Part shown: piece after piece, positions 12,528 through 28,738 of the stretch
Layout of the letters: each line of letters opens with the position of its first letter
Position numbering within the stretch: position 1 is the first letter of the stretch
Virus record (IMG/VR): IMGVR_UViG_3300029286_000180
Span: 1 to 30,549 of that record
Source: a virus
Strand: one strand, 5' to 3'
DNA length: 30,549 nt
The notes under the pieces: model-generated
The model's input: the letters and a program-made list of their open reading frames with translations, nothing else
Told to the model about the DNA's origin: nothing
Database searches by the model: none
Made by a program: the position numbers and the translations under genes

Positions 12528-12634
12528 GAAAAGATAAAGTATTGGTAATAGGCGAAAGGGATACCCCATACACCCCCCTACGTCTGTGTTGGTAGTGGCT
12601 ATTCCCAAAATCAGACTTTGTAAAACAAAGCATC

Positions 12635-12709
12635 GTATATACAAATCACTTGACAACGTATATACAAGCTGATAAATGTATATACAAATTTTAGGAGGTG
12701 TATATACAA
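12635..12709 (+). promoter_or_regulatory. Four-site TGTATATACA operator array with promoter
   Basis: GTATATACAA occurs at 12635-12644, 12658-12667, 12678-12687 and 12700-12709; sites three and four are the perfect palindrome TGTATATACA and sites one and two are CGTATATACA. Spacings are 23, 20 and 22 bp, about two helical turns. A promoter lies among them: TTGACA (12650-12655), 17 bases, TAAATG (12673-12678). The fourth site overlaps the space between AGGAGGT and the ATG of the ribbon-helix-helix gene. The layout suggests cooperative autorepression. Confidence 0.8.
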
Positions 12710-12981
12710 TGAAGAAGTTAATAAGTGTTCGGTTAGAAGAAGCTGATTATGCTAGGTTGTTAAAAGAGGCTAAGTCTTTTGGCGGGGTTGGGAAGTGGAT
12801 TACCTCACAGCTTAGTGGATATGTGTATATAGAGAGTAAGGAGAAGATACCAGATAAGATTATTAAGACTAGGCAAGATGCAGTTGAAGCGGCGAAGGAT
12901 TTGGCAAGTAAGGTGTTAAAGAAGGTTTCTCATTCGCCCGGCTGCAAATGTTTAATGTGCAAACCTCCGAAGGCTAAATAA
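12709..12981 (+). CDS. Ribbon-helix-helix regulator with Cys-rich tail (90 aa)
   Basis: The start at 12709 is fixed by AGGAGGT ten bases upstream; the frame to 12676 is only an extension through operators. The first 40 residues MKKLISVRLEEADYARLLKE and AKSFGGVGKWITSQLSGYV fit the strand-helix-helix of CopG/Arc-type repressors, in which ISVRL would be the DNA-contacting strand. A helical linker follows, then HSPGCKCLMCKPPK with His75, Cys79, Cys81 and Cys84, a possible metal site. These proteins bind tandem short palindromes cooperatively; four such palindromes lie in its own promoter. Autoregulation is an inference from that layout. Confidence 0.75.
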   Translation: MKKLISVRLEEADYARLLKEAKSFGGVGKWITSQLSGYVYIESKEKIPDKIIKTRQDAVEAAKDLASKVLKKVSHSPGCKCLMCKPPKAK

Positions 12982-19495: not shown

Positions 19496-19578
19496 ATTCA
19501 AGAGGAGTTAAAGCGGCAGAGTATATACAGAGTTATTAACAAGTATCTCGAAAGAGGGAAAACTAAAGGAGAATTAAA

Positions 19579-27623: not shown

Positions 27624-28738
27624 TGGATTACGGTAGAAGAAAATACGCAACTCCAACCGATAACCAAATTGGGTTTATGAGGGAAAGCACCGACCAATAC
27701 GTTAATAGTATCGGTGGAGATTACTATCCTCACGCAGATACGAGGCAACCATATTTATATTCTGATTATACAGAAATGCTGTATTTATTTAACGGCCCGG
27801 GGTTATCCCCTTACATAAATGACCATAAAGACCCTGAATTAAAACCAGTTAATTGGGGAAAGCCGCCCTCTCCCGGAAACCCCGGTTCACCCGGCAGACC
27901 ACAACCCGGTCAACCCGGAACATTTGCCCCGCCCGGATTTGGCAGTCCCGGTTATGGTTCTCCCAGTAGTGGCTCTCCTAATTATGGAGCTTTTGGCAGT
28001 AGGGGATATGGTGCTTCTGGGTCGGGCAGTGTAGATATGTCACTTGGTGATTTCGGATTAGATGAGGGGCAGGGAGATGGAACTTTTTCTTGGTGGGATT
28101 TATGTGGTGGATTGGGAATTTCATATACAAGTAATTCACTTGGCGCAGATGAGGAAATGTCTATATCTGCTGGAGCTGTAGGAGAAAACATAAATCTTAG
28201 TTGGTCATTAAGTGGAGTGGGTTCATTAAAGAATGAAGATGGCGGGGCATTAACAGAAGATAGAAGGACTATTGTATATACGGCTCCGCATACTAATCCT
28301 GGATGCGATAATCCTATTATTACTTTAAGATGTGAAGGAAGGGTAACTAATATAATAAAGATAGCTGTAAATACATCTACAAGTGGCTCCGCAGCAGCAG
28401 TGGTAAAAACTTGTTATAATGGGTCAGAAACCTGTGCAAAAAACTGCGGATGTTATTCTGTAGCTGGAATTGCATATAAATGCACAGGAGGAATAGTCGT
28501 TGGAGGCAGTTGCGGAACAAGCACTCCGGGGTGTGTTAATTTCGGCCCCCCTCCTTTAACCTATCCCACTTGTGCATTAGCATTTGCTGCCGTTTGTGTT
28601 AATGCAGCGGCAGGACAGTGCAATTCTTGTGCTGCTGCCCTTGCTTTTTGTAGTGTATATGCTGGAGGTTTAGGAACTACAGATTTAAGAACTGCTGAAA
28701 TGATTGCAGATGGATGTTGTCCTTCACAACTTTTATAG
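27623..28738 (+). CDS. Pro/Gly-rich protein with Ig-like and Cys-rich C-terminus (371 aa)
   Basis: Translationally coupled by TAATG. Three parts are visible: an N-terminal soluble part to about residue 80; a collagen-like or disordered Pro/Gly/Ser stretch (PPSPGNPGSPGRPQPGQPGT, then repeated GSPxYG); and a C-terminal region that starts with an Ig-like segment (SISAGAVGENINLSWSLSGV) and ends with 16 cysteines in about 150 residues, including CAKNCGC, CNSCAAALAFC and CC. The cysteines suggest disulphide bonds or zinc, unusual in a virion protein unless it works outside the cell. It follows the hub gene, so a tail fibre or surface-exposed appendage is plausible. Confidence 0.7.
   Translation: MDYGRRKYATPTDNQIGFMRESTDQYVNSIGGDYYPHADTRQPYLYSDYTEMLYLFNGPGLSPYINDHKDPELKPVNWGKPPSPGNPGSPGRPQPGQPGTFAPPGFGSPGYGSPSSGSPNYGAFGSRGYGASGSGSVDMSLGDFGLDEGQGDGTFSWWDLCGGLGISYTSNSLGADEEMSISAGAVGENINLSWSLSGVGSLKNEDGGALTEDRRTIVYTAPHTNPGCDNPIITLRCEGRVTNIIKIAVNTSTSGSAAAVVKTCYNGSETCAKNCGCYSVAGIAYKCTGGIVVGGSCGTSTPGCVNFGPPPLTYPTCALAFAAVCVNAAAGQCNSCAAALAFCSVYAGGLGTTDLRTAEMIADGCCPSQLL

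Follow-up and report, generated by a model that had tools for sequence, protein, structure and literature searches.

Four palindromes two helical turns apart at the promoter of an accessory phage ribbon-helix-helix gene suggest negative autoregulation

The DNA analysed here (hereafter the window) is a stretch of 30,549 nucleotides from the 30.5-kb IMG/VR virus record IMGVR_UViG_3300029286_000180, with positions counted from 1. In the slot between terS and terL it carries a gene for a small protein, P0001, preceded by an array of four sites that share an invariant core, the 8-bp palindrome GTATATAC (Table 1). The sites follow each other at 23, 20 and 22 bp, exactly as described in an earlier note made from the sequence, and they overlap a TTGACA promoter and the ribosome-binding region, as the same note had stated. 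The putative -10 element is weak, matching at three of six positions, and the core of site 4 ends one base ahead of the ATG at 12709. The longer string GTATATACAA is exact at 12635-12644, 12658-12667, 12678-12687 and 12700-12709. The 10-mer TGTATATACA, which the earlier note had assigned to all four sites, is exact at sites 3 and 4 only, its first letter being replaced by C in sites 1 and 2.

Table 1 Features of the array, the ribbon-helix-helix gene and its orthologue
Feature	Position	Strand	Remarks
Accessory cassette (array and gene)	12631..12978	+	approximate borders of homology to L004
Operator site 1, GTATATAC	12635..12642	.	upstream of -35
Putative -35, TTGACA	12650..12655	+	TTGAC kept in L114, as is its distance to the next site (8 nt between first bases)
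Operator site 2, GTATATAC	12658..12665	.	within -35/-10 spacer
Putative weak -10, TAAATG	12673..12678	+	17-bp spacer; tentative assignment
Operator site 3, GTATATAC	12678..12685	.	at -10 / transcription start
Shine-Dalgarno, AGGAGG	12692..12697	+	read from sequence; between sites 3 and 4
Operator site 4, GTATATAC	12700..12707	.	between Shine-Dalgarno and ATG
P0001, 90-aa protein	12709..12981	+	RHH domain residues 1-44, middle helix 55-72, tail HSPGCKCLMCK
P0001 orthologue	L114:2734-3099		

Exact copies of GTATATAC start at six positions of the window (12635, 12658, 12678, 12700, 19521 and 28274), as against 0.38-0.58 copies expected by chance per 30.5 kb under Markov models of orders 1, 3 and 5. 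Two copies within 75 bp occurred in 0 of 300 simulated windows at each order, and the probability of a cluster of four in 75 bp was roughly estimated at 2e-10. The four-site array is therefore real and beyond chance.

In the AlphaFold model of P0001, an extended segment (residues 1-10) is followed by helices at 11-24, 27-43 and 55-72, with block mean pLDDT values of 83-95 over residues 1-40 and lower confidence in the region of the C-terminal tail. This N-terminus has the strand-helix-helix order of ribbon-helix-helix (RHH) proteins, the monomer model showing the strand as no more than an extended segment. Structural alignment of candidates supplied by Foldseek, where E-values were weak (best 2.2), gave RHH proteins in all 13 matches listed, spanning residues 1-50, with Z scores of 6.1 for Arc (1.6 Å over 44 residues), 5.8 for CopG, 5.6 for PutA and for KacA, 5.4 for AtaR and 4.0 for omega. 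A profile of the array-adjacent proteins, P0001 included, matched MazE7, Arc, AvtR, ORF56 and NikA in the PDB. An independent RHH profile, built without P0001 and without every three-site locus, scored P0001 at 9.2, as against 6.0 for the best of 1199 background ORFs; it superseded an earlier seed profile that was too weak and drifted on iteration. Pfam gave no RHH family match for P0001, the curated cut-off of RHH_1 (CopG family) not being reached, and no significant match to P0001 was found among annotated phage proteins, nor any match to the window in annotated phage DNA; Rfam families and tRNAs were absent from the window. The model, the structural matches and the independent profile support, for the N-terminus, the RHH fold that the earlier note had ascribed to the product. 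The note's wording 'CopG/Arc/omega-type' is borne out for the fold, but not for the operator layout, since the sites are spaced by 20-23 bp and the omega and RelB arrays are contiguous.

Beyond this domain, the motif HxxGCKCLMC, in a lower-confidence region of the model, is the only possible match in P0001 to a NikR-like C-terminal metal-binding tetramer domain. The tail HxxGCKCLMCK is common to otherwise different small phage proteins (window 12931-12963, L001:6001-6045 and L003:6001-6099), the one in L003 sitting directly behind terL, and Cys clusters also terminate several array-adjacent RHH proteins (L192, L065). Another small RHH-like ORF (53 aa) lies at 2776-2937 on the minus strand of the window, with weak matches to the phage repressors phrog_876 and phrog_582. 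A type II toxin-antitoxin operon was considered and rejected: the next gene on the same strand is terL, with no ORF of at least 50 aa in between.

TerL relatives were fetched and the stretches upstream of TerL were read. In L006/L114, whose TerL is 76% identical to that of the window, a P0001 orthologue occupies the same terS-terL slot; its first 10 residues and the segment GGVGKWIT are identical to P0001, and the Cys residues of the tail are kept. The earlier note had proposed to look for the array upstream of the homologous gene in related phages, and three GTATATAC sites indeed precede the L114 gene. As in the window, one site begins 8 nt past the start of TTGAC and the final site stands 1 nt from the ATG, so that the geometry relative to both is kept despite diverged spacers. 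This was the only P0001 orthologue found in IMG/VR. The closest phage found, L004/L005 (TerL 90% identical), has neither the gene nor the array, and homology to L004 ends at about 12631 to resume in the region of the stop codon at about 12979; array and gene thus behave as one accessory cassette. The idea that the array is a general companion of TerL was discarded, because among the relatives whose upstream stretch was read only L006/L114 has it; other GTATATAC sites in TerL relatives are all single.

We considered the possibility that the array is a functionless promoter-proximal tandem repeat arising by drift of AT-rich repeats. Plain tandem repeats do account for many GTATATAC clusters in the collections (L106, L193 and those of Bacteroidales). 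Yet, the window combines an exact 8-mer with variable spacing and variable sequence between sites, and the promoter geometry survives in L114 next to diverged spacers, which makes this explanation highly improbable.

Two lone copies lie outside the array, a number within chance (P about 0.06-0.12). One belongs to a fifth site, GTATATACA, at 19521-19529 between the capsid and beta-helix genes; the earlier note had correctly seen a site in this gap, though one base off (19522-19530). The other, at 28274-28281 inside an ORF, had escaped its tally of five. A late promoter controlled from 19521, as that note had suggested, is unsupported: no GTATATAC lies in the corresponding gap behind the L114 capsid gene, and the count of lone sites does not exceed chance. 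No second target of P0001 in the phage is evident.

Scanning IMG/VR for three copies of GTATATAC 17-26 bp apart yielded 33 stretches, and 26 were obtained with CTATATAG, a palindrome of equal composition that served as control. With an RHH call defined as a score of at least 6 in the independent profile, 9 of the 64 ORFs adjoining three-site arrays were RHH. The background ORFs of these loci included 1 RHH in 1199, and none of the 36 ORFs at control arrays was RHH. The Fisher P value of 1e-11, calculated before dereplication, is optimistic, as the nine ORFs represent about five independent families; the contrast stands nevertheless. Pfam alone, at a lenient threshold, gave about 4 RHH-type matches in 50 test ORFs versus 0 in 34 controls. 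The phages concerned are unrelated and span about 39-63% GC. Leave-one-out profile scores were good for most array-adjacent families, while L114 and the L076/L078/L200 family were not scored as RHH; the L200 AlphaFold model is of low confidence (pLDDT 53), so that this family is only a candidate for the fold. Four other array-adjacent proteins had no significant match in annotated phages.

Arrays in bacterial genomes are most often 22-bp repeats of Bacteroidales, where none of 203 adjacent ORFs was RHH, indicating that GTATATAC alone is not diagnostic. Many Bacteroidales genomes (contigs L207-L286) carry dispersed tandem repeats, mostly with a 22-bp period, with GTATATAC in every unit and no neighbouring RHH gene. 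AbrB/MazE-like genes also adjoin GTATATAC arrays, at L175:10894-11139 (AbrB-type) and L310:3168-3440; the L175 gene and the Bacteroidales arrays together mean that the palindrome is not exclusive to RHH proteins. No paper tying GTATATAC to RHH proteins was found in the open-access literature searched.

The sites might instead belong to a host regulator such as a GntR repressor of the HutC type, the RHH protein being unrelated to them. GTATATAC occurs within the predicted dre site of NagR, a GntR family member, at S. pneumoniae glmS (PMC5110562), and the link of P0001 to the sites is a prediction from sequence. However, the array travels with the gene in the relative L114 and is missing together with it in L004/L005, and such arrays recur beside RHH genes in phages unrelated to each other and of widely differing GC content. 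This reading therefore appears quite improbable.

Alignment of the promoters of array-adjacent genes gave a common frame, TTGAC(A/T) with a 17-bp spacer, at 9 loci from 7 families. One site starts 7-10 nt and another 26-32 nt past the first T of the -35 element, and the two thus fall in the -35/-10 spacer and at -10/+1. The frame is present in the window, L114, L065, L076, L200, L091, L137 and L068, the -35 being imperfect in L065 (TTGATT) and L076 (TTGACG); L189 has the same spacing with a poor -35, and L192 and L197 are exceptions to the TTGAC rule. The composite motif occurs 16 times in viral loci and not at all in control loci. At L065, L076, L200 and L062 the -10 element lies 12-13 nt before the ATG, which implies a near-leaderless mRNA and places the sites in untranscribed DNA, favouring a DNA operator over a general role as RNA hairpin.

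This geometry bears on the possibility that sites 3 and 4 pair in the mRNA as a hairpin that ends at the start codon, holds the Shine-Dalgarno sequence in its loop and controls translation. In the predicted fold of the window RNA, a 10-bp stem places AGGAGG in its loop region (z -3.3), and a 9-bp stem is possible around the ribosome-binding region of the L114 gene. Yet, any two adjacent copies of a palindrome can pair. Sites 1 and 2, at 51-74 nt upstream of the start codon, lie at or before the putative promoter and so would fall outside the transcript; with the -10 at -36, the 5' arm would itself be largely missing from mRNA made from this promoter, and pairing cannot explain the layout of the near-leaderless loci. 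We consider an RNA role unlikely.

The array stands at the gene's own promoter and is conserved together with the gene. These findings suggest that the accessory RHH gene represses itself, its dimers excluding RNA polymerase from the four palindromes, a reading to which we assign a probability of roughly 0.8; as a prediction from sequence, negative autoregulation is well supported but not proven. P0001 dimers would bind the GTATATAC palindromes, one per site, with the N-terminal strand (residues ~3-9) entering the major groove and presenting the outward side chains of S6 and R8. Placed about two helical turns apart, they would cover the -35/-10 spacer, the -10/start region and the ribosome-binding and start-codon region, presumably keeping P0001 at a low steady level. 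Dimers may bind cooperatively; the spacing of 20-23 bp would put them on roughly one face of the DNA, but across gaps of 12-15 bp cooperativity would need contacts beyond the RHH domain. Bound P0001 may also hamper read-through transcription from terS into terL, and the position of the gene raises the question of whether late transcription can be tuned by small cassettes that repress themselves.

CopG and P22 Arc are small RHH repressors of mobile elements, whose operators are single or paired and closely spaced. Residues 1-44 of P0001 have the same predicted fold, but the protein carries in addition a Cys-containing tail and faces four sites two turns apart. In the E. coli RelB/relO system, four contiguous 6-bp repeats tolerate no spacing, and N5 and R7 of the strand contact bases (PMC2812701). 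The negative autoregulation proposed here resembles it in that RHH dimers act at their own promoter on multiple repeats along one helix face, RelB N5/R7 being comparable to P0001 S6/R8; in contrast to relO, the palindromes of the window have 8 bp and a spacing of 20-23 bp, and the gene is not followed by a toxin gene. The omega repressor of pSM19035 binds arrays of 7-bp heptads, NATCACN (PMC4803016); here too RHH dimers occupy repeated promoter sites, though in heptad arrays rather than on spaced palindromes. The nearest precedent for the spacing is NikR, an RHH protein whose half-sites, beginning with GTAT, lie two turns apart across 16 bp (GTATGA-N16-TCATAC; PMC7055735); unlike NikR with its tetrameric nickel-binding domain, P0001 has only a short helix and the HxxGCKCLMC tail. 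The regulation predicted from the sequence would thus be of a known kind with a new layout, two-turn-spaced palindromes, which departs from the textbook contiguous RHH arrays.

More tentatively, and with considerable doubt, GTATATAC in a fixed promoter frame, with a site in the -35/-10 spacer, another at -10/+1 and frequently a further one at the ATG, may be a recurring operator code of many divergent RHH self-repressors in uncultured phages. Several of these proteins carry Cys-rich tails, which may bind metal and could link dimers two turns apart in a NikR-like manner. The common promoter frame provides a testable rule, in which TTGAC, 2-5 nt, GTATATAC, about 8-16 nt and a second GTATATAC would mark autoregulated phage RHH genes. 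Such a rule reaches phage proteins whose divergence hides them from family databases, and the operator of each is predicted from sequence alone.

Upstream of the array, several TerL relatives share the conserved block at 12545-12630 (CCCATACACCCCCC ... CAGACTTTGTAAAACAAAG), which in them immediately precedes terL or the variable slot and may serve in packaging (cos/pac) or as a promoter element. The slot of the closest relative (L004:345-790) consists of about 450 bp with no credible ORF and no Rfam match, and the TerL of this phage (L004:834-3398) contains an intein that the window TerL lacks, at residues 479-797 (Pfam Intein_splicing, E 2.8e-12).
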